Assembly: GCA_949130485.1 (NCBI GenBank)
Contig: OX422185.1
Coordinates: 9,610,118-9,674,117, forward strand
From: Agelas oroides
Lineage: Eukaryota > Porifera > Demospongiae > Agelasida > Agelasidae
Reading direction: 5' to 3'
DNA: 64,000 bases
In this document: piece by piece, positions 18,898 through 44,730 of the stretch
How the letters are laid out: every line of letters starts with the position of its first letter
Position numbering within the stretch: the stretch's first letter is position 1
Notes under the pieces: model-generated
The model's database searches: none
What the model was told of the DNA's origin: nothing
What the model saw: only the letters and a program-made list of their open reading frames with translations
Translations under genes and position numbers: made by a program

Positions 18898-19248
18898 AGC
18901 TAAGTTCACCGCGATCCATGTTGCGGTTACGTCATCTTATTAAATATTCATAAGCAATCCGTTGCGCACTTGTTAAATATTTATAGTCTGTTGTGCAGCC
19001 GTGGATTAAATACATTAGACCGAATAGTGCGCTTGTCGTCCATTGTGGCTTGTTGGCTAAATGGTTAAGGGTAAGGGTTAGGGTTAGGGCTTGGGCCAGG
19101 GAATGCACTAGCTGTATTTTTTTTTCCCTCTGGTCTTATAAGTGTGGTGAACACCTTCGCCTTCAGTGGTTCGATAAGTGCGCTACGGATTACTTATGAA
19201 TATTCAATAGATGACGTAACCGCAACATGGATCGTGGTGAACTTAGCC
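18898..19248. mobile_element. Inverted-repeat element with internal TTAGGG tract
   Basis: The left arm CTAAGTTCACCGCGATCCATG..GCGGTTACGTCATCT pairs with the right arm AGATGACGTAACCGCAACAT..GGTGAACTTAG. Arms are about 90 bp at roughly 90 percent identity by eye. The centre holds TAAGGGTAAGGGTTAGGGTTAGGG (19064-19090) followed by a T-run and TTCCC. Confidence 0.8.
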
Positions 19249-19251
19249 TCT

Positions 19252-19545
19252 TAGTCTCGCAGGACAGACTCTCACGCGAAGGAGAGAGTCTGGTCAAATT
19301 CCCATTACTCAGCAGCAGGGCGCCTAATGAAGTAGGTGTGAACATAAATTGGACGTGTTCTGAAAGGCAGGACTTCCGTTGAAGCGCCACGCTCTATAAG
19401 CAACATGCCAAAAAAGGCAACCGCACGCCCCATTCGTCACTAAGTCAATTAACATGCCAAGAAATTCTTGGCGTGTTAGACACAAGTCGATGAAGGGAAT
19501 TTGACCAGACTCTCTCCGCACGTGAGAGTCTGGCCCGCGAGACTA
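19252..19545. mobile_element. MULE-type MITE, 294 bp, perfect 9-bp target duplication
   Basis: The ends TAGTCTCGC..GACAGACTCTCACG and CGTGAGAGTCTGGCCCGCGAGACTA form inverted repeats of about 50 bp that include GAGAGAGTCTGGTCAAATTCCC. The identical 9-mer TTAGCCTCT flanks both ends (19243-19251 and 19546-19554). A 9-bp duplication with long TIRs is typical of the Mutator superfamily. No transposase, so it is non-autonomous. Confidence 0.9.
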
Positions 19546-19647
19546 TTAGCCTCTCCCGTTTGCTAAACATTTAGTAAAGATCGATGTTTGGTAAAAATCA
19601 ATCGAGGTTTAGTAAAGGTCGCAGGTTTGATAAACATTACTAAAAGG

Positions 19648-20030
19648 TAGTGGCTAGAGAGCCGGTAGCGGAAATTAAATTCTAGGGTCGATAACTTCTG
19701 ATCGCAAACTCCAATTTTAATGAAACAAGTATCAGTAGATAGAGCTTTAAAATAGCTACAAAATGATACCCTTTTCATTAGGCTGTGCCTTATATTGTTG
19801 TAAATACAAATACAAACGCTTAAAGTACTGGTACCGGCACTTTAAGATTACGCGAAGTGAAATTTACTAGGTACGGCGCCTGTACTAAACAGCTTGCTGG
19901 AAAAAAGGGTATCATTTGGTAGCTCTTTTAAAGCTCTATCTACTGATACTAGTTTCATTAAAATTGGAGTTTGCTATCAGAAGTTATCGACCCTAGAATT
20001 TAATTTCCACTACCGGCTCTCTAGCCACTG
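19648..20030. mobile_element. Foldback element with 130-bp arms
   Basis: The left arm (19648-19776) GTAGTGGCTAGAGAGCCGGT... is repeated inverted at 19899-20030. Identity is about 90 percent. The spacer of about 120 bp includes CTTTAAGATTACGCG. Mirror ORFs in the two arms are a by-product of the inversion. Confidence 0.85.
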
Positions 20031-20370
20031 CGTCACTAAAAACCGGAGTTTTGCATTTGACACAAACGGCACCCCATAGTATGTTTATCGATAGCGATAA
20101 TTCTTTTACTTGTGGTATCAGTGAAAGTATGGTAGTACGGTACTCCGGTACCGGTTGTTACGGCCCTGAAATTATTGCTAACTTCACCGCATCCAGTCCT
20201 AATACTGCGATCAAGGACTAGAAACAACGAAGGCTGACCCATCATTTAGTCACTCCGAACTTACAGCTTGCCGTTTCGTCCATGTCTGCGTGTTCACGTT
20301 CACAGCTCGCAACGGGAGAGAATTTGTTCAGGAGTACGGAAGTCACGTGTCGCGCTACCGTTGATTTGAC

Positions 20371-21316
20371 TGTACTGTCACGAAAAAAATGGACCCCCCT
20401 GAAATAGTTCCCCCCGGTCCACTTCGAAGTATTTGGACACCCCGGTCCGATTACTTCAGAGTAGTGCTGAAGTATTTGGACCACCTCTGAAATAATTGGA
20501 CCCCCATGGGGTCCAACTACTTCAAAGTATTTGGACTCCCGGTCCAAATACCGGACTCCCGGTCCAAATACTTCAAAGTAGTACCGAAGTATTTGGACCC
20601 CCAGTGCTCTAAGCAATAATTCCTGAAATCTATTGGTATATTTGGGCCTGCTGGAAGTTTGAAATGAGCATGAATTTTGGCATGAAACTACAATGGATGC
20701 TACAATTAATTTTGCACTGCAACGTAATCATCCACACACACACATGCAAAAATATGTTAAAATCTGACAATCTATAAACAACTGTTACAAAACCAGGAAG
20801 CATTAGAGTCAAGTACAGTTGAACACATGCATTCACACATCAGACATACAGGTAGTACACTCTCAGCCTCCTGGTGTTCGTCTTTTCCACAATCTCTCGC
20901 TGTTTTTCCTCGTCTCGATCTATAGTCTCACAAGCCAGACCCACTTTCACAAAAAAGGGAAGGGTCTGGTGAACTGCACATACTGTGAAGCTGTGTCCAG
21001 TTCACCAGACTCTTCCCTTTTTTGCGGAAGTGGGTCTGGCTTGACTTGTCTCGATCCTTGGTAGTCTGGTAGCGATCTCTTTCCTTCCGTTGTCCATTTC
21101 GCATTTTGTGACTCTACCTATATACCTTTGTATTCTCACCCTAGATTGACAGACTTGCACAATCGTCCCAGAAAGACAGTGAACTGACCAACCAACGCGT
21201 TGCGCGCGTGCTTGTTAGGGGGGGTCCAAATACTTCAAAGGGGGTCCAAATACTACCGTAAAATTTGGACTGGGGGTCTGATTATTACGGGGGTCCAAAT
21301 ACTACGTGACAGTACA
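20371..21316. mobile_element. TIR element with GTCCAAATACTTC sub-repeats, 946 bp
   Basis: The ends TGTACTGTCACG (20371-20382) and CGTGACAGTACA (21305-21316) are perfect complements. Sub-terminal regions carry many copies of GGTCCAAATACTTCAAAG / GAAGTATTTGGACCCC in both orientations (20400-20600 and 21225-21300). This modular end structure is typical of non-autonomous DNA elements. No transposase. Confidence 0.75.
20930..21050. mobile_element. Near-perfect hairpin MITE
   Basis: CAAGCCAGACCCACTTTCAC then AAAAAAGGGAAGGGTCTGGTG pairs with CACCAGACTCTTCCCTTTTTTGCGGAAGTGGGTCTGGCTTG across a short loop (about 20985). It lies inside the 20371-21316 element, so it inserted later or is part of it. Confidence 0.8.
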
Positions 21317-22080
21317 ATGTGTTGGTCGACCGAAGTTGCTTGTTGGCCAAATGGTTAAGGGAAAGGGTTAGGGTTAGGGTTAGGGTTAGGGCTGGGGCCA
21401 GGGAATACATTACTTCACAAAATGTGGTGAACATCTTGTCTTTGTTGGTTTGATAGCCTCTGGATGCATCTAAGATGTCACACGTCAAGTGAGCGTACTC
21501 CAACTTGTGTGAACAAAGTGCATCCCATTCCCAACACCTGAGCCCCACCCCTCCAATTCCAACTCACGTATACGCATGCGCAGAGGAGGTAAAGTAGTAG
21601 TATATGGGCACTCATTCCAACAGTTTATTCCAGCAACCAGTCAGGGGCCTGTCCCAGTAGTACCTTTCGCCCACTCACGCCAGTGACAATCAATATCCCA
21701 GCTACATGTATATACCTAGCTACCATAACTGGTTACTGTGGCACATAGCACATGATGAAAATAGTAGACTGTGTTTGTAACCTAAATGTTAGCCTTGTTC
21801 CTAGGCCTTCCATCGTTTGCAGTGTGATAAAGTGAGAGAGAATCTAGTATCTTTTCTTGTGTGAGTGACTTCAGGATAAAAAGGATGATACAAAGGGTTA
21901 AGTAAGTAACTTCTTGCTATCCTGAGTGCCATTGTACCCACGCACAATCTAGACATACACACAAAGTGTTCAGCATGTAATTGGTTGCACAATACATGAA
22001 AAACGTTCTGTAAAATTATACTCCTGTTAGGAAAGATACGTCCCCTCTCCCACTTTACAAAAAAAGATGGTCTACATAAA
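21317..22080. other. Intergenic with TTAGGG tract
   Basis: 21355-21395 holds AAGGGTTAGGG repeats inside the same TTGTTGGC(T/C)AAATGG...CAGGGAAT context as 19040-19115, so the tract travels with a repeat family. A single TAGCC-family half-element lies at 21790-21880. No gene. Confidence 0.6.
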
Positions 22081-22089
22081 CACTCTCCA

Positions 22090-23090
22090 GGCTACAAGAC
22101 TTTCAAATTTCAGAAACTTAGAGCACATTTACGCTTGATATCCTACTACTCTTGCCTCCCAGGACTTACGTCATTCCTTGCTTCATGCACCTACTTTGTA
22201 ACACTGTCTTCAACAGTAGCCCGCTACCACATGATCACATAAGGCATGTTAGTGTTTACATAATATGCTGACTCAGCACATACAAAAAATTTTGCAACTG
22301 CCATTTTCCTGATTTTTTGAGTGGGGGTGGGATCTGGGGACAAGGCTAGCATTATGTGAGTCTTTTATACAGGTCTTTGCAGGCGAATGAGTAGCAAATC
22401 ACTCATGCATGGCTAATTAAATAGTGCGACAGCGCACAGCACTTGACTGTAACTTTAGTGTAGCAGAATAGTATGCAGGTTACCAAGGGAACTTGGCGGA
22501 TGGCTATGCACGAGCAGTGTGTACAAGCTGTTTTCTCCTTCCCTGCCCCTAGCACAAACACATGCAATTAGCCAGCTACTACTCTGCAGCCATTCCCTCA
22601 ACCAAACTGCTAGGACCTGTAGAGACTTGTTACCAGTATATAGGTCAGGTTACATGTGTGAATGTGTGAATGGGGTAATGTGACAGATTCTTGTTGGCAG
22701 GACCAAATTACTGCCTTTCCCACCCACATATCCTGGGAACAGTTTTTCTTTCTCACCACATATCCTGAGGTGTCTGGTGAACCAAGTCAAATTTCTTGTG
22801 CTAGCTCATGCTTTTGCACAGTGTAACCTAGCAACGTTCAAGTGACAAACCTGCTCAAAAATGTATGGATACTCAATAGAGATGAACACATTTTACTGTT
22901 GTAAGGGAAGTGCTATGTAATAATTACCGATCTCACAATCCCATTGATCCTTACAACTTTTTGGTAATAAGCCCAAAAAATTCCACTTCGTTCACCAGAC
23001 GATTTCTCGCCAGGAGGCATGCGCGGGTTGGGCACGAGACTATGAAAATGTGTAGACTACACAATGTTTGAAACTGTGTCACTAGTCTTG
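22090..23090. repeat. Left copy of an inverted repeat mosaic (see 31355-35000)
   Basis: Several stretches are reverse complements of the right copy. GAAACTTAGAGC (22115) pairs with 34970; CGCTACCACATGATCAC (22220) pairs with 34855; the CTCACCACATATCC area (22750) pairs with 34550; TTTCTCGCCAGGAGG (23005) pairs with 31435 and 32625. Order is preserved but the right copy is interrupted by insertions. Confidence 0.8.
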
Positions 23091-24315
23091 CTACTTTTGT
23101 GTAGCTAGGCTAGTTTTTGAGATAAATAGGCCGAGAAGTAGACTGAATACGTGAGATTATAAATGTTTACCCTCGTACCCAGGCTCACCATTACCCTCGT
23201 ACCCAGGTTCACCATTACCTTCGTTATACCAGCAGAAAGACATGGTATGACAACTAGATACAGCCTCATTCTCAGGCTTCTGTACCCCCAGAGTTTTGAT
23301 TGCAGTATGCAAAGATGGATGGAGGGGAAGGGTTTTTTTTAATATGATCCATAGCATGGATGATGTCACAGACAGAACTCTAGCTGCAGAGAAACTGTTT
23401 CAGGTTTTGAAGCCCAAATCTGGAGGTTGGTTGCATTGCAAATTCAAAAGCAGCTTATTTTTTGCTCTAATTTTGTCACTACAGATATTTCACACTGCAG
23501 AGCTATATGTTGTAGCTCAGATAACTTTCATGGTTGGATTAGAATACAGGATTGATCTTCTCCATAGCGTCAAATGCATAAAAGTGTGAATACATAATTA
23601 TGCAACATCTGTGCTGTGAATCATATGGGACCAGGACTTCTCCCTCTCTTTCGCATACTGTAAGCAGTGGGTAGGGAAGGCCTGGGAACAATTAAGACAA
23701 TGCGGAGCCTGCTGATGATGACCCGCTGCAATAAATGTGACTGGCTATAAATACTTAAAAACATTAAAAATGTAAAAAGATGTAGGGATGGCATGCCAAA
23801 AAGTAGGCAAACAAGGTAGGGATAACGTATGAAAGCAAAGGTCAACATATTGGCAAAGCCCCATCCCAATACAGTAGCATGGTTTTCGCATCATCTTGCC
23901 TCTACATGGCTTCAATTACCACCAATTAGTACCTGCCTTCTACATGGCTTCATATGCTAAGCTTCACTTCACTCTACACCATGACTATGCTTATTGTTAG
24001 AAGCTGGATTGTGCATCTAACTCCAATCTAGCCAGGCTTCCACACTATGTGTGGTTAGTGGGTTTCTCTTAGTCAAAGTTTGTGCCCTTGCTGCTTGCTC
24101 ACCATGCACCTGGAAGTGTGTGCCTCTAGTGGATCTGCTTAACGCTCTGTTGTGGGCAGGACGAAATGGCCTACACCCGATACTTTGCACTTGGGATGCA
24201 GTTATCACCTGCACTCCAGTCACCGTTTTCTTTCCACTTGGGGTGCGGTTATGCTTGAAAAAACAAAAACAAAAAAAAACAACAGCAAACCAGTTCAGGT
24301 AGTCTGATGGAGCCA
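23091..24315. other. Intergenic; half of a MITE
   Basis: 23745-23870 (ACATTAAAAATGTAAAAAGATG...GGCATGCC) matches one arm of the complete element at 37764-38041. A doubled 21-bp word with TACCCTCGTACCCAGG is at 23168-23220. No gene supported. Confidence 0.5.
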
Positions 24316-24320
24316 TTACT

Positions 24321-24825
24321 TTATCACCAATTAGCATCCATAAGAATGTTACTCATGTACAGTGCGTTGCCTAGGTAACTGGATATGGTCTTGCATGTTG
24401 TAGCTGATGACTAACCTCTTCTAGCAACTAATCTGAGGTAGGTGGTGTACCCTGCATAATAGCCTCTCATGCACTGTTTGAGAAACAATCCCCTGCCAGA
24501 TACCCTACCCGTTTCTGAAACAGCAAAGCTGTATGAATTTGGTCCAAGGCTACTGTACCTCATAAAGTACACACACACACACACACAGTCTGCCAATATC
24601 CACAAACCACATCAGATAGTACTATAGTGTACATTATCACCAATTAGCATCCATAAGGTTACTCACTATGGTGTGTTGCCTAGGTAACTGGATATGTTGT
24701 GGAGGATGAGTAACCAACTAACACTGTTGCGGAAATGTTTCAAAAACAATCCCCTGCCCAAGCAATATACCCTACCCTACCCCTGTTTCTGAAATGACAA
24801 AGCCATGTGAAATTTGGTCGAAGAA
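24321..24825. repeat. Diverged direct duplication (about 230 bp)
   Basis: TTATCACCAATTAGCATCCA...TTGCCTAGGTAACTGGATATG...AACAATCCCCTGCC...TTTCTGAAA...TTTGGTC occurs at 24321-24548 and again at 24630-24825. A CA microsatellite (about 24570) lies in the gap. No coding. Confidence 0.8.
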
Positions 24826-24829
24826 TTGT

Positions 24830-25931
24830 ACATTCTCAGGCCTTCCAGTCCAGTTCTTGAGTGCTTACAGTATGTAAAAACAGAAGGGGAAGTATGGTCC
24901 ATCTTATCTACTTAGGTAGACAGAGTGGGGAAGGGTTCCCTGACTGAAAGAACAAGCTTAAGGCCCTTTCTTGTAGCTGCTGTCCAAGCGCTGGAGTTTG
25001 AATGTTTGCAAAGCGGAAAACTAACCGCTCTCTCATTAGGACAAAGAACGTATACATGAAATGCATCCTTTTAATTGAGAACCCCTCACTCCCTCTCTCT
25101 ACTTAGACAGACATTGACATCATTCACATGATAAAATGGTCTCCTTTTGTTTTTGCACACTGGTAAAGCAGTTAAAATCTAGATGGTGGGAAGCCCTAGG
25201 GATAGGGCTAGCAATGAAATGTGTGTGCACCTCATTAACGTTACATGTGCAATTGGCCCCTGAAGTATGCACATGTGTTGTGTGAGAGCTAGGCTAGTCA
25301 GGTTTTCAGCACAAGTGTAACAGTTTGTCATAAAGTACATGAAAAAGGCATCATTCGGTGTAAGTTCTCTCATCACGTGAATAGAAGATATGCTTCTCAA
25401 ATGCAACATGAAGTCACCACTGAGTGCAAGCTAAAACTGCTCAAAGTACCTTCCTCCAAGTCATTATTATCAGACTCCAGGCTAACTTGCTCTTGTTTGG
25501 AATTAGTTATGACTCCCCAGCATAGATATACAGGAGCAGTGGGATGGCAAGGGCTTCCACATTGTAACTAGGGGGACACTGCATCATCCTGGGGCAAGCC
25601 TGAGTGAGTAGTTGGTTAAGCAAATTTCATAGCATGTATGCTAAAAGCTACCTGTACGTTACATGCTGACACTGCATTATTCAGCAGGAGCAGCTATATA
25701 AGGCTACACCAGCATGGCCAAGTAGTCTCTTCCCCAGGCCTACTGGGCACAAGGCTAATACGACAACTGTGAGCTAGCAGGTGAGTCTCTACCATTAATG
25801 ACCAGTCTTAGCATGTTCATGCATGATGCTTATCTGCAGCAACTCGCAGGCATCAGACTCATAGAATAGACTTATTTCGAATTTGCCGTGTGTGCTGCAA
25901 ACGCATTCAACTTGAATCATCTTGAACACAG
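24830..25931. other. Intergenic; nothing recognised
   Basis: Scattered half-copies of the AGGCCT/GGGAAGG inverted-repeat family; otherwise no feature. Earlier exons of the 25932-27530 gene fragment might lie here, but none was convincing. Confidence 0.4.
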
Positions 25932-27019
25932 GTGGGCACTTCAACGCCTTGCGCTTGCATGTTACAAAGATTCTGCAAAACCCTGTACCCCTCCTTGTCT
26001 GGCAACAGCCACTTTCAGTTGGGCTGAGTACACACGAACAGTGTGAAATATTTGAATGTGTTCATTCGAAAAACTATGGTAAGTGGTCGGTCCAAACAAC
26101 AAGCACATGCACAATGCATAGCCTCGTTCCCAGGCCCTGCCCAGCTTTCCATCGCTTTTAGTACGGAAAAGTGGGGAGAGGGCCTGGTATCTTTTCTCAC
26201 GTGAGTGATGTCAGGATAGAAAGGGGTTTAATTGTGCGTGGGCGCACAGGGCCCAGAACAGCAAAAAGAGCCAACGTAGCAGGTTACTTACTGCATGTAT
26301 CTAGCTAGCAGAGGGCAATTGTCGTATACACCGAGCATTGAGCATGTAGTCGGTTGAAAAATAGGTGAAACACAGCCGGTTCGTTCTGAAAATTTTCGCC
26401 ATTTTCCAATTACGTCATGCTCACGTGAGAAAAGATACCAGGTTCTCCCCATTTTTCCATACTGAAAGCAACGGAAAGCTGGGCGGGGCCTGGGAACGAG
26501 GCTACACAATGCAGTCCCACTAGTGTGAGGCTCATTCAGGCCTGCCCCAATTATCAGTTATAACTACTGACCACTCCATGGTACATGTGTGTCAATCAAC
26601 CCCAGTTTCCTTAGTGAAAGTGCCCAGACCCAACAGGGGAGAACACAAATAATTTGAGGTGAGAATGAACTGAAGCATGAATTACTGGCAACATGGTCAT
26701 GACTATCTACTTACCCACATATGGCATGTTGCATGGGTGGAGCAAAGTATAGTAAGCTATGGCTAGCCTCATTCCCAGGCTGCTACTTCGTGTACAGAAG
26801 AAATCCCTTCCTAGACACCAATCCAGAGTTCAGCATCGGTCTTTTCAACAATGTTAGTTTAAACTTTCTTGGACACAGGACAGAACAGTCGACTACCACC
26901 AGGTGCGGGAGGGATCACTATTGGTGAGCAGAGCTAGTTGGAAAGTCTAAAACGTACTAAGTCAATACCTAGCTTTGCTTGGAGTATCTACATGTAGTCA
27001 CCAGATCTTCATGGGAAGA

Positions 27020-28094: not shown

Positions 28095-28329
28095 ATAGAT
28101 AAGGGATCAAATCTTGGAGCTGGCCAAAGAAAGCTTGCTGGTAGTTCTGTTGTAACACACAGAAGCTGATCCCAGCCTGATCCCCAAGCAAAACTCAACA
28201 GTAATCAAGCCCAGATTAAACTGAATTCCTGGGTCAATTAAGCCAATTAAAACCAGTGTTTTCTGCTATCCTGTTGACTGTCGCTTGGGTATGGGGCGCC
28301 ATATGTAAAAATATTCAGAAAATACTGAT

Positions 28330-28705
28330 ATTTATCAAACATCACTGATATATATTAAATATCATGATATATATTAAATATCAAGATATATATGCCTAAA
28401 TATCAAGATATATATTAAATATCATGATATATATTAAATATCATGATATATAGCTAAATAGCATGATATATAATAAATAGCATGATATATAATAAATATC
28501 ATGATATATAGCTAAATAGCATGATATATAATAAATATCATGATATATAGCTAAATAGCATGACATATAATAAATATCATGATATATAGCTAAATAGCAT
28601 GATATATAATAAATATCATGATATATAGCTAAATAGCATGATATATAATAAATAGCATGATATATAGCTAAATAGCATGATATATAATAAATAGCATGAT
28701 ATATA
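28330..28705. repeat. AT-rich sub-repeat of the left arm
   Basis: Units of about 20 bp alternate between ATGATATATAGCTAAATAGC and ATGATATATAATAAATATC forms, about 18 units. The same array is inverted at 30535-30895. The Ile/Tyr/Cys-rich ORFs across it are artefacts. Confidence 0.95.
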
Positions 28706-28823
28706 AGCATGGTGTCATAATAGTCAACATTCTGGTTATCATATATTGTATGATGTCATAATGAGATCACCTGTTCTATCTAGAGCCCACCTGTATTGCT
28801 TACACTGAATTGCAGAGTCCATC

Positions 28824-28935
28824 ATGGGTCAGAGAGTGGGTCATCCTTTAACTGAAGTTGACATGAATGCTGTCAAATACCTCAAGACAATTGGGATGCC
28901 AATGGAAGATATAATGGGTGTAAGCCGCCACCTCT
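28824..28935 (+). pseudogene. Helix-turn-helix-like coding fragment within the TIR arm
   Basis: ATGGGTCAGAGAGTGGGTC opens a frame reading MGQRVGHPLTEVDMNAVKYL then KTIGMPMEDIMGVSR. The pattern 'AVKYLKTIGMPMEDIMGVSR' resembles DNA-binding HTH segments of transposases (L-x3-G-x-x-x-x-x-I-x-x-x-x-GVSR). The same block occurs inverted at 30290-30400. The inner side runs into tRNA-like sequence. Weak but coding-like. Confidence 0.35.
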
Positions 28936-28975
28936 GGCTTGAGCCGCCAGTGCTCCGTCACTGAGCCACGACAGC
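28918..28975 (-). mobile_element. tRNA-like SINE segment
   Basis: The minus strand carries TGGCTCAGTGACGGAGCA (box A-like) and CTGGCGGCTCAAGCCAG, a perfect 5-bp anticodon stem with a 7-base loop and CTC (Glu-type) in the anticodon position. The T-arm half is not present, so it is partial. Confidence 0.6.
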
Positions 28976-29091
28976 CGGACGACCACCAACCCTCACAATC
29001 CTCTATATTTACTGTATTTAGAGTGAGAAAACCACTCAGCATGGGTTCTTTCTTGATGGAGAGAATTTTCCAGTCAACCCCTGACGGTCAG

Positions 29092-29592
29092 GGCGTCAGG
29101 GTAGATGGCAGGTGTAAGGTGTATCCAAGATAATTAAACCCCTGGGTTATATATAAGGGCATAGTTAAGGGAAGGCAAAGCAAACGTGTTTGTCACTTTA
29201 AGATTAGGGAAAAAAAAAGAAACGTATAAAATACCCATTCCCTGTCCCAAGCCCTAACCCTAACTGTAAGACTAAGTCCTAAACATTACACCACGAACAA
29301 CTTCGGCAGACCATGCACACAATTCCGCCTAATGTACACTACCCCCTTATATATAAGCCAAGAATTTAACCATGAATTTAATCATCTTAGATACACCTTA
29401 CACCTGCCATGGGACTTAGTCTTACAGTTAGGGTTAGGGCTTGGGACAGGGAATGGGTATTTTATACGTTTCTTTTTTTTTCCCTAATCTTAAAGTGACA
29501 AACACGTTTGCTTTGCCTTCCCTTAACTATGCCCTTATATATAACCCAGGGGTTTAATTATCTTGGATACACCTTACACCTGCCATCTACCG
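29092..29592. mobile_element. Foldback element with 180-bp arms carrying CCCTAA/TTAGGG
   Basis: The left arm GGTAGATGGCAGGTGTAAGG...CCCAAGCCCTAACCCTAACTG (29099-29275) and right arm (29418-29592) are reverse complements with very few differences. Each includes a T/A-run and a TTAGGG pair, with a spacer of about 140 bp. It sits at the centre of the large palindrome. Confidence 0.85.
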
Positions 29593-29597
29593 TTCTA

Positions 29598-29685
29598 ACG
29601 GCACATACTGAGTGGCTGCCAGGTAAGCACTGGTGACTCAAGCCAGAGGTGTCCTGAGTTCGACTCCCGGCGGCTGCCGTCCTTT
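29598..29685 (+). mobile_element. tRNA-Glu-like SINE segment
   Basis: CTGGTGACTCAAGCCAG forms an anticodon stem-loop with CTC. Downstream is GAGTTCGACTCCC, a good box B. Upstream box A (TGGCTGCCAGGTAAGCA) is diverged. Acceptor pairing is poor, so this is SINE-like and not a tRNA gene. It is related to the segment at 28918-28975 in the opposite orientation. Confidence 0.6.
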
Positions 29686-29839
29686 TCACTTTCCTCTCTT
29701 TTCGCCGCATAACATCTAAATTCATTTATTGGACGGTGTCGTTTAATCCTTGCCACTAACTGATCCAAGTCCCTATCACTAATAGAAGTATTTGTTGCAT
29801 AGTCACTTGGATTACCACTCACTTGAATTTTGTTGTACA

Positions 29840-30288
29840 GTCAGGCCTGTAGGCAGGGGGGGGTTCGAGGGGGTTCGCTCGAACCCCCTTTTTCACCTCC
29901 AAAAGATTTTATATACATCGCTTAATTGTACATTTTAAGTGTCCTGCCGTTTGAAATGGTCCACTAGTCTCGCTGCTACTTGGAATCATCGCTGTCTGAA
30001 CGAGCCTGGTTGCTAGTTCAGACGCTCGAGAGTTGTCCTTCTAGTGATGTCACCCCACCTGCTGTTACCTTAGTACCTTCTCTCATGGAAATTCAAAGTC
30101 AGCTGGCTTAGGAAATGCATACATGGACACTTTGGACAGTCAACAATTGGATGCAATACTCGGCGAGCCATGTAGCTACTACGGCTCTGCTTCTGTCCCA
30201 AAATGGCCTCAGAAGCAATCTTACTGCATACATACAAATCACATACCCATGTAACCCCCCTTCTATAAATCCTAGCTACGGGCCTGAG
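29840..30288. mobile_element. hAT-like MITE with CAGGCCTGTAG ends
   Basis: Left CAGGCCTGTAGGCAGGGGGG, right end CTAGCTACGGGCCTG. A G-run/C-run palindrome (GGGGGTTCGCTCGAACCCCC) follows the left end, as in the element at 125-366. No clean target duplication and no transposase. Confidence 0.55.
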
Positions 30289-33047
30289 AATGTTCGGTGG
30301 CTTACACCCATTATATCTTCCATTGGCATCCCAATTGTCTTGAGGTATTTGACAGCATTCATGTCAACTTCAGTTAAAGGATGACCCACTCTCTGACCCA
30401 TGATGGACTCTGCAATTCAGTGTAAGCAATACAGGTGGGCTCTAGATAGAACAGGTGATCTCATTATGACATCATACAATATATGATAACCAGAATGTTG
30501 ACTATTATGACACCATGCTTATATATCATGCTATTTATTATATATCATGCTATTTAGCTATATATCATGCTATTTATTATATATCATGCTATTTAGCTAT
30601 ATATCATGCTATTTAGCTATATATCATGATATTTATTATATATCATGCTATTTAGCTATATATCATGATATTTATTATATATCATGCTATTTAGCTATAT
30701 ATCATGATATTTATTATATATCATGCTATTTAGCTATATATCATGATATTTATTATATATCATGCTATTTATTATATATCATGCTATTTAGCTATATATC
30801 ATGATATTTAATATATATCATGATATTTAATATATATCATGATATTTAATATATATCTTGATATTTAATATATATCATGATATTTAATATATATCAGTGA
30901 TGTTTGATAAATATCAGTATTTTCTGAATATTTTTACATATGGCGCCCCATACTTGGGGATCAGGCTGGGATCAGCTTCTGTGTGTCATAACAAAACTAC
31001 CAGCAAGCTTTCCTTGACCAGCTCCAACATTTGATTTTTTACGTCTTAAGTCCTCTGGGCTTGCCTCTGCCATATTTTGACATATCTAGCAATTATTTAG
31101 GCATCACTGTCTCACACACAAGAAGTTTCTATACTAAATCTGACCAAATTATACCCTTATGGACCACTATGACAAAGTCGGAAGATGACATACTTAGTAT
31201 GTCACTATGTCACTGGAGAGCCTGGCCCTAGCAGTGTGATAGGCATTACTTTTAGGAAGCCAGACTGTGGGCTAGCGCAGGCTAAGGCACAATTAATATT
31301 GGGCTGTTATTGTTCATGTTTTCAGCCCAAAAGCCTGTGAAACTGAACTCCAATACACGGACTCAGCAGTGACACAGTTTCAAACGTTGGTGTAGTCCAT
31401 ACATTTTCATAGTCTCATGCCCAGCCGCACACACCTCCTGGCGAGAAATGATCTGGTGATCAAAGTTAATTTCTTGGGCTTATTTCCAAAAAGTGGTAGG
31501 ACCAATGAGATTGCGAGATCAGTAATTGTTACGTAGTAGTTCCCTTACATCAGTAAAATGCGTTCGTCTCTATTTGAGTATCCGTACCTTTTTTGAGTGG
31601 GTTCTTGAAGGTTGCTAGGTTACACTGTTGTGGTTTTGAGTTCTAATATTGCAAGGTCAACCCAAAACACTGTACCCAGGATATGCCGTGAGAAAGAGAG
31701 TAATTTGGTCTTGCCAACAACAATCTGCCACATTACCTCATTCACACATGTAACCTGACCACTGGTAACTATCTCTACAAGATCTTGCAGTTTGGATGGC
31801 TGCAGAGTATCAAATCACTCATGCTGCCCAATTGCATGTGTTTGTGCTGGGCAGGAAAGGAGCATAGCATAGCCTAGCCCAATGCAACACCTGAACAATC
31901 CAATTACACACAGTAAAAATGTAAACTGTCAATATTTTGATATATCTAGCTGCCAGACAATTGTACGTAAGCCTTTGTACTGGGTACTATGAAACACTAA
32001 AAAGACTTCAAGTTCCTCTACCCCTGATCAGACTGGGAACTCCCACGATGACCAGCAAATGCAAACCGTAAATTTTAAAAGAAAGTAGCAAAACTATGCT
32101 AAATGCATACTCACACGATATCCATATAGCTACATGTAGATAGAATGTAGCTTAGGTTGAAAGTACTCCGTACAGTACATCACACACAAACAAGCGCCTC
32201 CAAAGAAGAGTAGGAGAGAAAAATCATTGATCTTGTTTTCACTGACTCAAAGTGCAATGAACACGTTCCCTGCCACCCTCCTTAACAGGAATACTTTCAA
32301 ACACACACACAAGAATATATTCGAGAATATCATTGTACTGGGGGTGGTATACAATCAGACAGTGATTACCAAAGTCTAATTGAAACGTTGGATTAAAATT
32401 GTTTGTTTAACTGGTGCAAAGTTCAACCAAGCATCACTGTTTCACACACGAGAAGTTTCTATACTTAATGTGATCAAATTATACCTTCATTCCTGAGTTA
32501 AATTATTACACAACTGAGCTGCTTGGTATCTGGGAAATGCTGATTCAGCAGTGACACAGTTTCAAACATTGGTGTAGTCCATACATTTTCATAGTCTCGT
32601 GCCCAGCCGCACACACCTCCTGGCGAGAAATGGTCTGGTGATCAAAGTTGAATTTCTTGGGCTTATTACCCAAAAGTGGTAAGGACCAATGAGATTGCGA
32701 GATCAGTTACTATAACAGTAAAATGTGTTCATCTCTACTCGAGTATCCGTACCTTTTTTGAGCAGGTTTGCCACAAAATGTTTTGAACGTTGCTAGGTTA
32801 CACTGTCACAAAAGTGTGCGCTAGCCCAAGAAATTCGACTTGAGACCATTTCTTCTCGTGAAAGGGTGGGGGTCTGGGGACAAGACTAATATTTTCAGTC
32901 AGAGACTCCCAGGATATGTGGTGAGAAACTGGTACAGTGTTTGCATTGACCTTGCAAAATTTGATTACTGGCTAAGACAAACTACAAAGTAGATTAGGTA
33001 GATTAGCCTTTACATGCAGCTAATGACATGCCCACCTATAGTTTGTA

Positions 33048-33490: not shown

Positions 33491-33610
33491 AAATATTCAA
33501 GCACCTCCTCTGTGTAACCACCCCCCCAACCCTTAAATGTTTTGTGGTTTTGGTTTTGTGAGTTCTAATATTGCAAGGTCAACCCAAAACTCTGTATGTG
33601 GTGAGAAAGA

Positions 33611-34524
33611 GGGTAACTACAAAAGCTGGACTCTGGACTCTGGACTGGACTCTTGACTGGACTATGGACTGAAATTTGGACTCAAAATAAATGTGGTAGA
33701 ATGTACAGGAGAAGGCAACAAGATCAAATATCGAAACACAAGTAGAGTGTTATACAGAAAAAGGCAAACACATGCTTATGAAGTACCATGTTGGCCATTT
33801 TCACCACTGCCACTGATCAGTTGTGCTACATTTTACTCCCCTTGGCCAACAGCCAGTCATACACCTACATCCCTGGCTCCACATTTGAACACTTACCCTG
33901 TTCAGCCAGCTGTCAGTTGTACGCCTACATCCCTAGCTCCACATTTCCACACATCCAACCTCCGGCTACCATTGATTCCTCTATAGTAGGTTCTTTACAT
34001 CCAAACTTCAACCCCTTCGATGTTAAAATGCTGTGTGGGAACATTCGTGTCTGTCAAGGCTGTAGGGGAAGTCTCAGACAATCAGATGGATCTATTCCAT
34101 CACCTCCTTTTGACATGGTAGCAGCTCGGGTGGAGAGAAGACAGTTTCGTGACGCTAGTTGGACTCTAAGAACCCCCGCACGACCATCAATTGCCCACTA
34201 CCACATTTCCTTGCAGTGTATCTGTGTTGCTGAGCCGCTTTTCCTTCCATCAGCTCTTCACATTCCTGCAGATGTTGCAGGCCAACTGACCCCGCAACAC
34301 AGGGAATATCTCTACATGCAGCTCAGTATTTTATCTTGTAATTGCCTTTTTCTGTATAACACTCTACTTGTATTTTGATATTTGACCTTGGTGCTTTCTC
34401 CTGTACATTTCTACCACATTTATTTTGAGTCCAAATTTCAGTCCATAGTCCAGTCAAGAGTCCAGTCCAGAGTCCAGTCCAGAGTCCAGTCCAGAGTCCA
34501 GTCCAGAGTCCAGCTTTGTTACCC
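33611..34524. mobile_element. MULE-type element with GGACTCTGGACT sub-repeat ends, 914 bp, carrying an ORF
   Basis: The ends GGGTAACTACAAAAGCTGGAC and GTCCAGCTTTGTTACCC start arms of about 150 bp: a GGACTCTGGACT minisatellite, then ..AATAAATGTGGTAGAATGTACAGGAG.., inverted on the right. The flanks TGAGAAAGA (33602-33610) and AGAGAAAGA (34525-34533) are a 9-bp target duplication with one mismatch. The element 44095-44721 has the same end design. It encloses a 196-codon frame. Confidence 0.8.
33788..34378 (+). CDS. Cys-rich ORF inside the MULE-type element (196 codons)
   Basis: The frame is open from ATG to TGA. Residues 1-65 are low-complexity and twice repeat a Y-I-P-x-S-T-F motif. Residues 70-175 look like a real domain: NPFDVKMLCGNIRVCQGCRG (Cys83, Cys89, Cys92), SPPFDMVAARVERRQFRDAS, then AHYHISLQCI with paired His and a Cys, and LTPQHREYL. 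The C/H pattern suggests zinc binding. I recall similar modules in uncharacterised invertebrate proteins, possibly transposon-linked, but cannot confirm this. No catalytic transposase motif. It could be a captured exon or the tail of a transposase. Confidence 0.5.
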   Translation: MLAIFTTATDQLCYILLPLANSQSYTYIPGSTFEHLPCSASCQLYAYIPSSTFPHIQPPATIDSSIVGSLHPNFNPFDVKMLCGNIRVCQGCRGSLRQSDGSIPSPPFDMVAARVERRQFRDASWTLRTPARPSIAHYHISLQCICVAEPLFLPSALHIPADVAGQLTPQHREYLYMQLSILSCNCLFLYNTLLVF

Positions 34525-35220
34525 AGAGAAAGAAACACTGTTCCCAGGATATGTGGTGAGAAAGAGAGTAATTTGGTCTTGCCAACAACAATCTATCACA
34601 TTACCCCATTCACACATGTAACCTCACTACTGGTAACAACTATCTCTACAAGATCTTGCAGTTTGAATGGCTGCAGAGTATCAAATCACTTCCCTCAACC
34701 TACTTGCAAAAGACCTGTATAAGAGACTCACATAATGCTAGCCTTGTCCCCAGGTCCCACTCCCACCCAAATAATTAGGAAAAGGGCCTGGTCACAGTTG
34801 CAAAAATTTCTTGTATGTGCTGAGTCAGCATATTATGTAACAACAACATGATCACGTGGTAGCGGGCTACTGTTGAAGACAGTGTTACAGAGTAGGTGAA
34901 CCAAGGAATGACTGTAGGAAAATCCTGGGTGGTGAGACTAGTAGCCTATCAAGTGTAAATCCGCTCTAAGTTTCTGAAATGTGAAAAGTCTGGTAGCCTC
35001 GTTCCCATTTTCTAATGGTCTTGGAACAAGGCCTACCTTCAGTGGTCAAGAATTTAGTAGTTAGAAATGGACGAACATGATTCATCTATCCCAAACAAAG
35101 ACTGCTGACACAGCACATACGAGAAATTTTGAAAGTGTGACCAGGCCCCTTTCCCGATTTTTCAGGCAGGGCCTGGGAACATGACTAACATTATGCCACA
35201 TTCGTGAGAAAGAGGCTTAC

Positions 35221-38475: not shown

Positions 38476-38504
38476 ACATGTGCGCATGCGTACAACATTA
38501 GAAA

Positions 38505-38645: not shown

Positions 38646-39349
38646 GTGAGTGCTTGAACCGTTTTTGAGTTATCGTTGTTTGAACAAAAGTCGTAACAAG
38701 AAAGAAAGAAAGAAAGAAAGAAGAATACGAAAAATGGCACTTTTGCTATCGCACACTTTTGTGTTTAGCTGTCTTCCGCGTGGCTTTTGGCCACTTATGA
38801 GTCTTGCTGATCATAAAGGCACTCAAAGAGGAAGCCTGGATGCTTAAATAAACTTTTTGCGTGTTTGTGGTGAAGTTATACGGCTTTTGCTTAAATATTG
38901 CATATATTGCGCGTCGGCGCCATCCCTACATAGAAAGTCTACCGACTCTCTGATAGTTTAACTAAAACAACACTGCTTTGTAAGTGTTTTCATGTTATTT
39001 TTATTATCAGAGGATAACCTTTGAAACGTTAACATCTCATGTTTAGGTATGGTGTTTTCCTAGCATTTCTAAAAATTTATGCAGGTACTGTTAGGTACCA
39101 CTGGAGTAGTCTCATTTAGCGTACAGATCTTTCTTTCCACTTAAAGCATATGGCCATAGTATTGCAAAAACTACAAGCGGAGCAAAGCAGATCTAGCCTG
39201 TGCATGGGCGGACACGTACACGTGCAACCACAACAGTGTGTTTCCGCGTGACTGGAAATTACGGATGTGAGATCAAGACCGCACGAATTTTGCAACTTGT
39301 CACAACGAGTGACGTCATGTCCTCCCTCCCCTAGCTCTGTATAAAAGAT
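38646..39349. other. Intergenic or intronic; GAAA microsatellite
   Basis: AAGA/GAAA repeats at 38700-38722. No exon recognised. Confidence 0.4.
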
Positions 39350-39900
39350 TGGTTGTGACAGCTGGAATATACGGCACTGGAATATCCTGTTCGCCTTGCC
39401 CAGCTTAAACCCTTACCCCAGAGGAGGTCCGACACTAGTGATGTCATATCCATCAACACGTGATCCTGATTGTCAAGTTAATTGCTAACCTCCTGCATTC
39501 CATTGCTTCAAGAACGATTTCTGGGCATCAGAAGCTTCTAGCGTGCTGGGTTCACTTGGGTTGGGGGGTATTTTCAACCATACTGAAGCTGTCTATTAGG
39601 TCGAGATTGATCACTGCCATTCATCTAGCTCTCAACCGCCACATAAATGTCGTTTGGAGGTCACAAAGGCATGCAATGTTACTTCTGACTGGCGAGACAC
39701 TTTCAGCATCACGAAAACCCCCCTAAACCCATCATGATCTTTGCTGCACAGCATTCCGATTGTTGGTACTGATGGTGTTTAGTCTTTGGAATGTTCATTA
39801 ATGCATAGCGCATGTGACTGTGTTGGACCTCCTCTGCCCTTACCCTACCTATGCGCTAACTAATTCGAATTTCCAGTGCCGTGTATTCCAAGCAGTCCAG
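39350..39900. repeat. Inverted pair with GGAATA..CGGCACTGGAA arms
   Basis: CTGGAATATACGGCACTGGAA..CCCTTACCCCAGAGGAGGTCC (39360-39435) is inverted at 39815-39893 (GGACCTCCTCTGCCCTTACC...TTCCAGTGCCGTGTATTCC). The right arm overlaps the coding-like minus-strand relic below, so part of that relic is duplicated in the left arm. Confidence 0.65.
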
Positions 39901-40117
39901 TTTGTCATCAAAATACACTAGAACTGTGTTTAGCCCTAGACTCAGTCGATAGAGCATAATCCAGACCTGAGTGGGTGTGTGGATAGAGCCCTCGCTCTGT
40001 CTCTCCACTAGCAGAAACTTTGTCAAGGTCTCTTCACTTCTATTCAGGGCCATGACGTACACCCTTTGTCAGAGTGCAGGAACATCATCGGGAGACACTG
40101 TTCTTCTCAAACAGAAA
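39866..40117 (-). pseudogene. Coding-like exon relic, unknown protein
   Basis: After CTATGCAG on the minus strand the frame reads RRTVSPDDVPAL, a TGA, then QRVYVMALNRSEETLTKFLL, VERQSEGSIHTPTQVWIMLY and RLSLGLNTVLVYFDDKLDCL, ending LEYTALEIRIS before TAG. Composition and the acceptor look like a real exon with one nonsense codon. Family not recognised. Confidence 0.35.
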
Positions 40118-40399
40118 CTGCATAGCTACTCATGAGGTAGTCTCGTTCCCAGAACCTTCCAGAGGGTCTGGTTCCTAGACTGCTCACGGGGTTCATGCAG
40201 CGGGAAGTCGACCGAAGTGCGTTTCAAAGCTGTAATGTTGGGTTAGGGTTAATTTAGGGGGCAATGGCGCATATGCGCATATAAATGTGTATAATAAATT
40301 GACCAATAGGGTTAGAGCTTTGAAAAGTAGATCAATATTCGGACACCAGCGATAATCGGACGCTCATACACGGAGACTAAGCCACGCAGATACTCGGTT

Positions 40400-40706
40400 A
40401 TGCCACGGAAAGGAAGGCGGAGTCCACCGTATCCGGCGACTGAAAAATGGAGCTCGAGCGTCAATGCGGATGTGCGTCACAATCTCTATTTCCAATCCCG
40501 TTCTGAAGGTATGTACTATCTATGCCTATGGTTGTGCGCACTGTCACATGCGAGCGACTTTGATGTGGGGTCGGAAGTTCGAGAGTTAGTGAGCGCTTTT
40601 GTGTCTAAGAGCTTTGGCTAAGGTAAAACGAGCGATTCGATAGTCAGTTTGGGGTAGTGAAGAAATTTTTCTTCACTTTGTATTTTATCTGCTCTTTTTA
40701 TTTCAG
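40400..40706 (+). promoter_or_regulatory. 5' exon and 198-bp intron of the 341-codon gene
   Basis: 40400-40508 has an ATG followed by 36 codons to a good donor GAAG/GTATGT. The intron 40509-40706 ends TTTTTATTTCAG directly before the main ATG. Read through the splice, the upstream frame enters exon 2 out of frame and ends after about 14 codons. The first exon is therefore best read as 5' UTR containing an overlapping upstream ORF. A CpG-richer stretch (40370-40480) fits a promoter or leader. Confidence 0.5.
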
Positions 40707-41732
40707 ATGGCTTTACCGTCCACAAAGAAGAGGCAAACCTCTCCTCGTAGTCCGAGTCCGACTCCGACTCCACCATTGCTGAGTAACTTTCCACCTGGCG
40801 AGTTACCCAGACAAGTTGGCAGTGGAACTGGAGCCTCTTCACAAGTAGCAAAGAAACAAATGAGTAACATTTTAGGCTTGCTGAACTTGATAGACGAATC
40901 AGTCGATATTGTGGAGGACGAGGTCCTCCCAGGAAAGATTGCAAATGTCATAGCACTCGCCATCAATCACATCAAACATAATGACAGTGAAGAATGTTAT
41001 ACTCAAGAGGAGCTTATATCTGCTCTAGAGGAACAAGTCAGTGCTCTACAAGATGAGTCTGCTCAAGGTAGTGCTGTGAGAGCAGTTATACGAATGTGCC
41101 AATGCGAGGCTCATGAAACAATACGAGACATAACTTCACCTATTAGGGAGTTAGTTGTAAAATTACTAGATATCGCCGTAACTGAAAGTTCCCCAAACGT
41201 CGAAAACCAACTTGGTGAACTGCTTATATGCATCTTGCAAATAGTAAATGAAACAACAGATGTTCAAGTTCGTGTTGGATCCAAACTATTTTACCAAAAA
41301 CTGGGCAAAAAATCACCCCATTGTGGCTCTTTTATAGTGCACAATACTGCAGAAGAAGTACGTTACGACATAGATGAGGTCGACATAGTTGGCAAACTTA
41401 GAACACCAAGGGTGATACTGGTACTTGTATGCGAGATCCAAAGTTTCCCTGAAAATTTACGTTCAGCAAACATCCATACAGCAGAAGTAGCGATAGCTCA
41501 ACTGACAACCAAAAGATTACAAGGAGTTGTAGCCATCAGTATGGCAAAGAATAGATCAGCAATGATCTTTACTGCAAGAACAGTTGGTCCTGCTTATGAA
41601 GGCTATTACAAAGTTGATTTTAAACCAGTTGCCTTAGAATGCCATGATTTGACTGTAAAGGAAGGCATACAACGTTTTACCCAAGTCTACTATTCTACAC
41701 TCAAGAGTTTACCTCAAGTGAGCTGGAGTTGA
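40707..41732 (+). CDS. Intact 341-residue protein of unknown function
   Basis: The longest intact coding frame in the window; its ATG is the first codon after a TTTCAG acceptor. Residues 1-50 are basic and Pro/Ser/Thr-rich (probably disordered), 50-180 acidic and helical, 185-335 mixed alpha/beta. The last part reads DIDEVDIVGK, then RVILVLVCEIQ (Glu243), a helix with HTAEVAIAQLTTKRLQGVVA, and KNRSAMIFTARTVG. This strand-helix-strand order loosely recalls PD-(D/E)XK nuclease-like folds, but the expected Lys is Gln in CEIQ, so activity is doubtful. No signal peptide or membrane segment. No homologue recognised. The absence of stops over 1 kb in A+T-rich DNA argues it is, or recently was, functional. 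It could belong to an unrecognised mobile family. Confidence 0.75.
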   Translation: MALPSTKKRQTSPRSPSPTPTPPLLSNFPPGELPRQVGSGTGASSQVAKKQMSNILGLLNLIDESVDIVEDEVLPGKIANVIALAINHIKHNDSEECYTQEELISALEEQVSALQDESAQGSAVRAVIRMCQCEAHETIRDITSPIRELVVKLLDIAVTESSPNVENQLGELLICILQIVNETTDVQVRVGSKLFYQKLGKKSPHCGSFIVHNTAEEVRYDIDEVDIVGKLRTPRVILVLVCEIQSFPENLRSANIHTAEVAIAQLTTKRLQGVVAISMAKNRSAMIFTARTVGPAYEGYYKVDFKPVALECHDLTVKEGIQRFTQVYYSTLKSLPQVSWS

Positions 41733-42885
41733 ACAAACATCCTCAATTGTTTTTGTCTCTGGTTGTATCTCTTTGTATTATATATAGTTAAACCCTGACC
41801 TCTTGTCCTGTCAGTGTTAGACTGAGATTGCTTACAGTCTGAGAACTTATCTTACAGCTTCTCAGCTGTCCCAAAAGACTTGTCTTCACAGATCAAATGT
41901 TTTCAGCAGGTGTCCCACAAAATTTGGTCTGGGAATGAAGCTAGGAATGTTACCAAGCTCTCCTAGTTTCATCCCCAGACCCTCCCAAAAGTGTCTGGTG
42001 ACATTTCATGTCACATGGGGTGGGGCACCTGGGGACTGCTGCATGGTATGGATTTTATAAGTCTTGGGGCAGCTAAGAAGCTGCAAGATAAGTTCTCTAT
42101 GTCCAATTCAGTCATGTCTCTCTTCTACAGTGATGCTGCCTAGGTAACAGGTTATATAATACCTCCCTGGGGGGTGGTCGTTTTACACATATTGCTTCTT
42201 GATAAATTTTCCATTTCTTGTCATTCTGTAACATCCAAGAACAGTCTTTGTCAAAATCCCACACCCACCATTTAGGTGGATTTGATGAAATTACAACATA
42301 AAAGAAAGCAAGCCCAAAGTAGTAGACTGTTATGGCCATGACCTGGGAGAGATATGCTCTTGCAAGCGATTGTCACACAAATGTAGCAAACTCTTGCAAA
42401 CTACTTCATGCAAGAGGCAAGCCGCAATGCAGGTGAATCTCTCACGCATGTGGCTAACACAAAAATTGATCTTAAAAATTGTTTTTAACTTAAATATTTT
42501 CTGATTGACAGTAGTTCCATTACACAAATGAGAGGAGGCAGGACAAACTTTCCGTACCATGTGACAGGGTTTTGTTTTGATTTCACAGATGCTTTAATTC
42601 ATTGCATACAGGAGGCCACGTACATGGCCCAGTAATTGCCACTTAGCCTATGCTGAAGGCCACATGTACTGGTCATCTAAGAAGCTTAACAAGACTTGAG
42701 GGTAAACACCTTTATGTTAACCTAGACCACACCTTTTGACTGACATCACTGCTCTGGAAAGGCAAGAAGGGGCGGTACTAGGGTTCGTGGGTGAACACAA
42801 GCTTGGCAAAGGCAACTAGATACAAAGCTTTCTCAAACACTGGGAGCTAGCACTTCAGTTTTCATTCAAGGTAGGAGTTCTAATA
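41733..42885. other. 3' region and intergenic
   Basis: TATATATAG follows the stop by about 45 bp; no clear AATAAA. A short GGTCTGGGAATGAAGCTAGG / CCTAGTTTCATCCCCAGACC hairpin lies at 41933-41985 (transposon family end). The minus-strand 75-codon frame 42339-42112 (MAITVYYFGLAFFYVVISSN...) has a hydrophobic start but no context to support it. Confidence 0.45.
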
Positions 42886-43057
42886 GCAGAGCATTGTATT
42901 TACCACCTGTAACAACCACTTTTGCTGATTAAGAATATCATGCCAAGGTAGAGCATTGTATTTACTCATCATACCTGTAATAGCCGCATTGTTACCTTGA
43001 TCAAGACCATCATATCAAGTACAGCATCGTATTTACTACCTGTAATAGCTACTTTGT
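42886..43057. repeat. About 65-bp tandem repeat, 2.6 copies
   Basis: AGAGCATTGTATTTACCACCTG..ATAGC..CATTGTT..TGATCAAG..ATCATG recurs at 42886, 42949 and 43019 with about 75-80 percent identity. The 134-codon minus-strand ORF overlapping it (43373-42969) is probably chance. Confidence 0.75.
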
Positions 43058-43530
43058 TTTTGAACACATCAAAATTATGTAGAGTGATCAAGGTCATGCA
43101 CGTCGAAGAGCATGCATGGTCATGCATGTCACTGCACATGTTTATGTCTGAGCACGTTACTTGGAATCCAATCATTTGTGTTGCCTTGTAAAATGATTTG
43201 ATGGGTTCAAAAATGCGATGGCTAGGTCTTAAGACAATGTAGGCTAGACACTCAGTTGTTTCTTTGAAGTGTTGTGCTTCGAAATGCAGTAGGCTAAAGG
43301 TATCCATTAATCTTTTGCGTTCACCGGTGCAAAAAACTATAAAACCAAATACAACATCCAAAAGACTGCACAACCGAGCATGACATCAATTTTTATATGC
43401 AGTATTGGTGATTAACTGCAAAGTGTCTTCACAAGAGTGTAACCATACAGTACCATTCCCACATGCTTACTGTTTCCAATTATTCTAAAATTATGCTAAG
43501 CATATTTTCCTCAGGCCTAGACCTGTCTGG

Positions 43531-44079
43531 CAGTGGCGTAGGAACCGTAGCGGCCGTAGCGGCTTTGGCCGCTACACTTTTTAGGCCGTAAATTAATATT
43601 CATAACCTGCTAAGTTAGCTCAAGCTAGCCTCGTTGTCTGGGAGCGAGGCTAAAGTCAAGCAGCGTCTTCGTTGCATCAGTCTCATATGCAGTTACATGC
43701 GTACATTTCCGATTAAAGTATACACTGTAAGGTGATCGAAATCTTGGCAGTGAGATGGCTCGGTACGAAGTTAATGCAGATTTTCAAAGAGACTACTACA
43801 AGCGACGAAAGCTAGCCGGGCGGTCTCCTGGGAACGACGACGAAGTCAGTATAATCTGTTTTCCACATAAATTGAATCTTGTACTGGAGGGTTGGTAAGG
43901 TCTGAGCTAGAATATTATACACCGTTGAAAAAAGGCTTTATTTTGCAGTCTAAAGGTGCACACTGTGAAAAAATTCGCCGCCGCGCTACGCGCGGCGAAA
44001 TTATTTTCCATTTATTTTAGCAGCGCTTCGCGCGGCACAGCATGGCCTCTACACTTCACATTTGCTTCCTACGCCTATG
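43531..44079. mobile_element. TIR element with CAGTGGCGTAGGAA ends, 549 bp
   Basis: The left CAGTGGCGTAGGAACCGTAG and the right TTCCTACGCCTATG are inverted matches. TCTGG flanks both sides (43526-43530 and 44080-44084), a possible 5-bp duplication. The ends also hold GC-rich hairpins (GCGGCCGTAGCGGC...GCCGC; CGCCGCGCTACGCGCGGCG). CAGTGGCG-type ends occur in several superfamilies, so classification is open. Confidence 0.75.
43755..43898 (+). CDS. Small ORF inside the CAGTGGCG element (47 codons)
   Basis: GAGATGGCT has a good start context. It reads MARYEVNADFQRDYYKRRKL then AGRSPGNDDEVSIICFPHKL to a TAA. The basic KRRKL run could be nuclear localising. It may be the first coding segment of a deleted transposase. 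No domain recognised. Confidence 0.3.
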   Translation: MARYEVNADFQRDYYKRRKLAGRSPGNDDEVSIICFPHKLNLVLEGW

Positions 44080-44094
44080 TCTGGTACTAGTTGC

Positions 44095-44721
44095 GGGTAG
44101 GTACAAAACCTGGACTCCGGACTCAATTTTGGACTGGACTGGACAGCAGAACCTAGAAACTAACGTCGCATTTCCAGGCCTTCCCACCGTCCAGTACTTC
44201 TAGAAGGGTCTGGGGTCCAGACTATAACCCTAACCCCCTTCCACAGGGGATCTCAATTTGCAAATTATAGGCAGTCTACCCGGCAGCTGAATAAATCAGC
44301 TGAGGACTCTAGCCTGGCTGTTAACAAGGCTTGCTTCTGCTGCAGGTCCAGTGGCTTAGTGGTAAGAGCATCTGACTAGTATTCACTAGGTTCCAGGTTC
44401 AACTTCAAGCTGGATCTCTGGATTTACTTTCCCTCTAAAGCTTACATTAACCATGTATAACACAACTCCTTGCCAACCAGCTGGGCTAGGAGACTGTAAA
44501 AGCAGAGCAATAGCAACCACCCAGTCTTGCTAAAAGCTGCATATAGAGGCCTGTTCCTACTGTTAGGCCATTCCTCCACTCATTGAGCAATCTAGCATTC
44601 ACAGTCTGCTTTAAACGGTAGAACTAGAACACTAGCTAATGTCCAATCGAGTCCAAAATTGAGTCCATTGTCCAGTCCAGAGTCCAGTCCAGAGTCCAGA
44701 GTCCAGGTTTTGTACCTACCC
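44095..44721. mobile_element. MULE-type element, 627 bp, perfect 9-bp target duplication
   Basis: The ends GGGTAGGTACAAAACCTGGAC and GTCCAGGTTTTGTACCTACCC lead into GGACTCCGGACTC / GAGTCCAGTCCAGAGTCC sub-repeats, the same design as the element at 33611. ACTAGTTGC is identical on both sides (44086-44094 and 44722-44730). The interior holds a tRNA-Thr-like SINE (44345-44417) and CCAGGCCTTCCC / GAAGGGTCTGGGG. Confidence 0.92.
44345..44417 (+). mobile_element. tRNA-Thr-like SINE head within the MULE element
   Basis: GGTCCAGTGGCTTAGTGGTA, AGAGCATCTGACTAGTATTC (anticodon AGT), then AGGTTCAACTTC and CTGGATC. The acceptor GGTCCAG pairs fully with CTGGATC (one G-T). Same family as 16189-16354. Box B departs from consensus (GGTTCAACTTC), so it is not a functional tRNA gene. 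Confidence 0.75.
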
Positions 44722-44730
44722 ACTAGTTGC

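Follow-up and report, generated by a model that had tools for sequence, protein, structure and literature searches.

In a 64,000-nucleotide stretch of Agelas oroides DNA (the window), short elements with inverted ends are flanked by 9-bp duplications and have empty counterparts elsewhere, and those ending in GGGTA have a right end and a transposase tail in common with copies of Mutator-like elements (MULEs). Three families carry a genuine 9-bp footprint; the GGGTA elements can be connected to a MULE gene, and no such gene has so far been linked to the most abundant family. We consider it probable that all of them are MITEs, that is, non-autonomous DNA transposons, which would be moved by a transposase making 9-bp staggered target cuts. 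The GGGTA elements would be internally deleted derivatives of a MULE with a MULE/DDE domain, a SWIM-like zinc-binding motif and a conserved C-terminal domain, an intact copy of which would have supplied the transposase. The elements with TAGYCTCG ends behave alike and, judging from duplication length alone, would most likely have been moved by a MULE transposase too.

Elements of the window and their flanks

A sequence-only reading of the window had named four elements with long inverted ends and 9-bp flanking duplications, three exact and one matching at eight of nine positions. Both the duplications, down to their coordinates, and the inverted ends (∼52, 86, 141 and 52 bp at 85–94% identity) were confirmed. 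A fifth element, absent from that reading, was added by a scan of the window.

19252–19545, no strand assigned: element 1, TAGTCTCG-type MITE, 294 bp, inverted ends of ∼52 bp (90% identity)
19243–19251 (left) and 19546–19554 (right): 9-bp duplication TTAGCCTCT of element 1, exact, read directly
26119–26504, no strand assigned: element 2, TAGCCTCGTTCCCAGG-type MITE, 386 bp, inverted ends of 86 bp (90%)
26110–26118 and 26505–26513: 9-bp duplication CACAATGCA of element 2, exact, read directly
33611–34524, forward strand: element 3, GGGTA-type, putative internally deleted MULE derivative, 914 bp, inverted ends of 141 bp (94%)
33602–33610 (TGAGAAAGA) and 34525–34533 (AGAGAAAGA): flanks of element 3, 8/9 match
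34428–34513, no strand assigned: tandem array with a 12-bp unit, AGTCCAGAGTCC, within the right end of element 3
39419–39836, no strand assigned: fifth element, ends CAGAGGAGGTCC, flanked by the exact 9-bp duplication CCCTTACCC; span with flanks 39410–39845
44095–44721, forward strand: element 4, GGGTA-type MITE, 627 bp, inverted ends of 52 bp (85%)
44086–44094 and 44722–44730: 9-bp duplication ACTAGTTGC of element 4, exact, read directly

One kind of end is common to the two GGGTA elements at 33611 and 44095. The 16-mer TAGCCTCGTTCCCAGG, which had been called very common, occurs in the window in its exact form only at the two ends of 26119–26504; with up to two mismatches it is found at 21 sites. 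Its abundance is apparent genome-wide, with 15,889 exact occurrences (7,848 forward and 8,041 reverse; control, 0).

The window scan, which covered left ends outside 28300–31000 and 46900–64000, yielded 740 inverted end pairs. Exact flanking duplications of 7, 8, 9 and 10 bp were observed 0, 1, 4 and 1 times, respectively, against 0.24, 0.12, 0.06 and 0.06 expected from shifted flanks. The four 9-bp cases are elements 1, 2 and 4 and 39419–39836; 33611–34524, with its 8/9 match, falls outside a search for exact duplications.

Duplications and empty sites across the genome

The genome searched comprises 259 Mb in 141 contigs. Among 20 copies of the 19252 family, out of 40 scored, the 9-bp duplication is exact in 12 and has at most one mismatch in 14; one of the remaining copies carries an exact 8-bp duplication and five carry neither. 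The 44095 family, represented by 20 copies out of 40 scored that were picked for having both ends, gave the same figures (exact in 12, at most one mismatch in 14), the duplication being absent from six. When flanks were mispaired, no duplications were obtained in either family (0/380 in each). TAGCCTCGTTCCCAGG pairs were defined as nearest convergent partners 40–1500 bp apart with up to two mismatches per end, no choice being made among partners, and were collected from twenty 10-kb stretches of C1 picked for the motif, one of which includes 2,500 N, from eight 3-kb loci and from the window. The 9-bp duplication is exact in 22 of the 61 pairs, within one mismatch in 32 and absent from 29; any other length from 5 to 12 bp gave 0–4 exact cases, and the mispaired control stood at 0.0003. 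Seven of the 32 duplicated rows represent only two insertions, located in a segment that exists in four copies (L015–L018), which leaves ∼27 independent cases. The check that the sequence-only reading had proposed, a 9-bp duplication in most copies, thus came out in its favour in all three families.

Exact 8-bp duplications, the target duplication length of hAT and P elements, were found in 1/20 copies of the 19252 family, 0/20 of the 44095 family and 4/61 TAGCCTCG pairs; 9 bp dominates, and in duplication length the families do not follow the hAT or P pattern. The 45 distinct exact duplications display no strong consensus. For element 2 there are 2,375 candidate relatives, and the 39 best others among those scored are close to full length, with 86–90% identity.

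In order to look for empty sites, the flanks of 79 elements, joined through a single 9-mer, were compared with the retrieved DNA. The matches crossing the joint numbered 39, some of them being the occupied locus itself. Clean empty sites with one 9-mer make up eight of the ten alignments displayed: three for the TAGTCTCG family, one for the GGGTA family and four for the TAGCCTCG family; in one of the latter the 9-mer differs at two bases. Among the three TAGTCTCG cases is element 1, whose counterpart lies within the window:

18841–18971, reverse strand: empty counterpart of element 1, with the single 9-mer TTAGCTTCT, one base changed; 82.7% identity over 139 columns

Two further matches are not decisive: at L015:8307 the joint coincides with a gapped ACATGT repeat, and for element 3 the alignment is broken at the joint by a gap of 23 bp.

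It is highly improbable that the flanking 9-mers are chance repeats or pieces of larger local repeats and not insertion footprints. Elements 1 and 3 do sit in locally repeated sequence and the flanks of element 3 match at only eight positions, which is what such a reading would draw upon. It is contradicted by the excess of exact 9-bp cases in the window over the shifted-flank expectation, by the mispaired flanks of the genomic copies and by the single 9-mer at the clean empty sites. These controls refute it for elements 1, 2 and 4; for element 3 the refutation is weaker.

GGGTA elements and MULE genes

That the GGGTA elements at 33611 and 44095 are MULE derivatives is well supported and, in our view, very probable. 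A search of the genome with the Pfam MULE family resulted in at least 119 matches to PF10551 (150 of 194 candidates scored). The open frame within element 3 (33782–34378) has 27 matches in the genome, and four of these follow a MULE match on the same strand, 1.2–1.3 kb further downstream. Five MULE matches are in turn followed, 0.9–2.1 kb downstream, by the right end of the MULE locus L070 (40 of 412 candidates for this end were scored).

34004–34330 of the window, forward strand: remnant of the MULE transposase C-terminal domain in element 3, 57.8% identical over 109 aa to locus L069
C1:5796911, C1:6089906, C1:6181566 and C11:5400944: the four places where a frame match follows a MULE match
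C1:5799104, C1:5977449, C1:6092064, C1:6183732 and C11:5398831: the five sites of the L070 right end

L070 (C1:6087600–6092600) displays, in this order, a MULE domain, a SWIM-like motif, the C-terminal domain and a GGGT end with three mismatches. Its domain matches are to PF10551 (7.3e-08) and PF00872 (5.4e-05), and its frame is interrupted by stops, one of them within the SWIM-like motif. In L069 (C2:9840300–9848000) the SWIM-like and C-terminal parts are contained in one frame of 349 aa, followed by a perfect GGGTAGGTACAAAACCTGGACTC end. The SWIM-like motif of both loci was seen by eye and has no Pfam match; many MULE transposases, though not all, have a SWIM zinc finger. The last 164 bases of element 4 are 81% identical to the last 188 bases of L069, a similarity extending well beyond the inverted end. 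The GGGTA end itself, with up to two mismatches, is present 97 times in forward and 106 times in reverse orientation (control, 0). A 0.4-Mb span of C1 contains four of the five MULE loci followed by the right end, which may have arisen from one another by segmental duplication. A series of MULE-domain matches with near-identical scores extends along C1 of the genome (G000) from ∼5.4 to 6.3 Mb, which suggests repeated segmental duplication.

A complete autonomous copy, with GGGTAGGTAC ends on both sides and a transposase, was not found in the stretches retrieved. No left end was found for L069 or for L074+L070, where 7.2 kb upstream were examined, and the autonomous partner is therefore known only in part. 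A GGGTAGGTACAAAA-like match at L069:3170 was considered as a left end and rejected, since no GGACT repeats come after it.

Another MULE group is young. L071 covers the 5′ portion of the one complete young autonomous MULE found, which is ∼4.95 kb long (C9:5397054–5402002). This MULE has ALS2CR8 and MULE domains, together with a SWIM match that stays below the curated cut-off. Seven other copies, 99–100% identical, align from L071:1053–1055 up to, or almost up to, the end of the query; further copies are interrupted. Its ends, GGG[AG]TTCGCTTTTTTC, differ from those of the GGGTA and TAG families, and its duplications are 10 bp long, exact in two of three copies and matching at 9/10 bases in the third. 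MULEs have therefore been active recently in this genome, but the 9-bp families do not stem from the L071 MULE.

According to PMC6446971, duplications of 8–11 bp are the norm for MULEs, and Phantom and other animal MULEs have 8–10 bp duplications and inverted ends of 18–613 bp (Table 1 therein), some with a SWIM finger and some with a minisatellite near the transposase. The elements described here resemble them in duplication length and inverted ends, and resemble some in the SWIM-like motif and some in the minisatellite; the words sponge, Porifera and Amphimedon are absent from the text of that paper. The Tm1 Mutator/Foldback family of root-knot nematodes, as described in PMC3169594, also makes 9-bp duplications without a clear target consensus and has MITE-like members, composite inverted ends of short tandem repeats and an autonomous form with a MULE domain. 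Its tandem units are 13–15 bp long, compared to ∼12 bp for the GGACT-rich units found here. One of its outer motifs, CCTACCC, is identical to the last seven bases of element 4, which may be a chance match, whereas the other outer motif differs from the elements of the window (PMC3169594).

TAG families and their smallest members

The sequence-only reading had assigned all of its elements to a MULE system and explained the common motif as a MULE-mobilised MITE family. The assignment is supported for the GGGTA elements by transposase-tail homology and by a transposon end common with MULE loci; no such support was obtained for the TAGYCTCG families of 19252 and 26119. None of eight MULE-domain loci (L070 with L074, L071, L072, L073 and L075–L078) or L069, which has the C-terminal part only, contains a TAG-type end pair enclosing the gene within the 4.6–7.7 kb covered at each. 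L071, L072, L073 and L075–L078 were accordingly rejected as the TAG-family source within the stretches retrieved. L028, which holds a MULE fragment, was also rejected: its two exact TAG motifs flank the fragment at ∼3 kb but point the same way, and N accounts for 2,500 of its bases. When nine open frames from motif-rich loci were scanned against Pfam, host-type genes and one reverse transcriptase were identified, and no DNA transposase. The literature searched, which included few subscription journals, contained no description of the TAG family.

With no TAG pair around a MULE gene at the loci read, the case for a MULE-mobilised MITE depends on the length of the duplication; on that ground, movement of the TAGYCTCG families by a MULE transposase appears plausible, if unproven, and somewhat favoured. 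Alternatively, these families might have been moved by a transposase of another superfamily, or by an undescribed one, that also makes 9-bp duplications, only the GGGTA elements being MULE-derived. The lack of a TAG pair at the MULE loci examined speaks for this possibility, as does the difference in appearance between the TAGYCTCG ends and the GGG ends of both MULE groups seen in the genome. However, 9 bp is a usual length for MULEs, hAT and P elements make 8 bp, and nine loci were read against 119 MULE matches, most of which are outside the sample, so that the search is far from complete; we regard this alternative as rather unlikely and continue to prefer a MULE transposase.

MITEs are short, non-coding elements with inverted ends, high copy number and a duplication of fixed length, usually 100–600 bp in size. 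The TAG elements share with MITEs in general the small size, the lack of coding capacity, the inverted ends, the copy number and the fixed duplication length, but differ from them in having members of 42–69 bp and in combining one 16-bp end core with several subterminal sequences. Within 338 kb there are 82 TAGYCTCG pairs that have good inverted ends; a 9-bp duplication with at most one mismatch flanks 42 of them, compared to 14 of 6,574 mispaired combinations, and 40 are without it. Among the 17 pairs of 40–75 bp, eight have the duplication, four have it with two or three mismatches and five have none. The eight duplicated elements measure 42, 51, 53, 56, 59, 61, 67 and 69 bp, the duplication being exact in five. 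Four elements of 42–110 bp fold as single hairpins, and none of 200 shuffles folds as well. When one mismatch is allowed, the sequence TAGTCTCGCNGGCCAGACTCTC is matched 227 times in forward and 229 times in reverse orientation (control, 0). In the 100 places listed, all on C1–C5, it forms 15 convergent pairs spanning 48–55 bp (a single cluster on C4 accounts for five), as well as longer pairs, five of 309–319 bp and one of 549 bp.

Elements of 42–69 bp consist of little more than the two ends and are nevertheless flanked by 9-bp duplications; the cis requirement therefore probably extends little beyond the outer 16–22 bp. We tentatively propose, as a possibility we would not yet bet on, that a MULE-type or still undescribed transposase moves such elements and has thereby spread the 16-bp core to ∼16,000 exact sites, seeding small tandem arrays. 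If so, they would be among the smallest eukaryotic cut-and-paste transposons and would provide a test of how tightly two transposon ends fit together in one complex. They pose a testable question: what is the minimum of DNA between the ends that a transposase can move?

Serial copies of the motif are also found. At 23167–23224 of the window there is a 24-bp tandem unit containing TACCCTCGTACCCAGG, and in L020, L022 and L024 motif copies follow one another at a spacing of 22–27 bp; these arrays look as if transposon ends had seeded minisatellites. Other repeats of the window include two AT-rich arrays of 39-bp units at 28326–30916, which are in inverted orientation around ∼1.8 kb with arms 99% complementary, and long arrays of a 72/144-bp unit at 47149–64000 and 916–1188.
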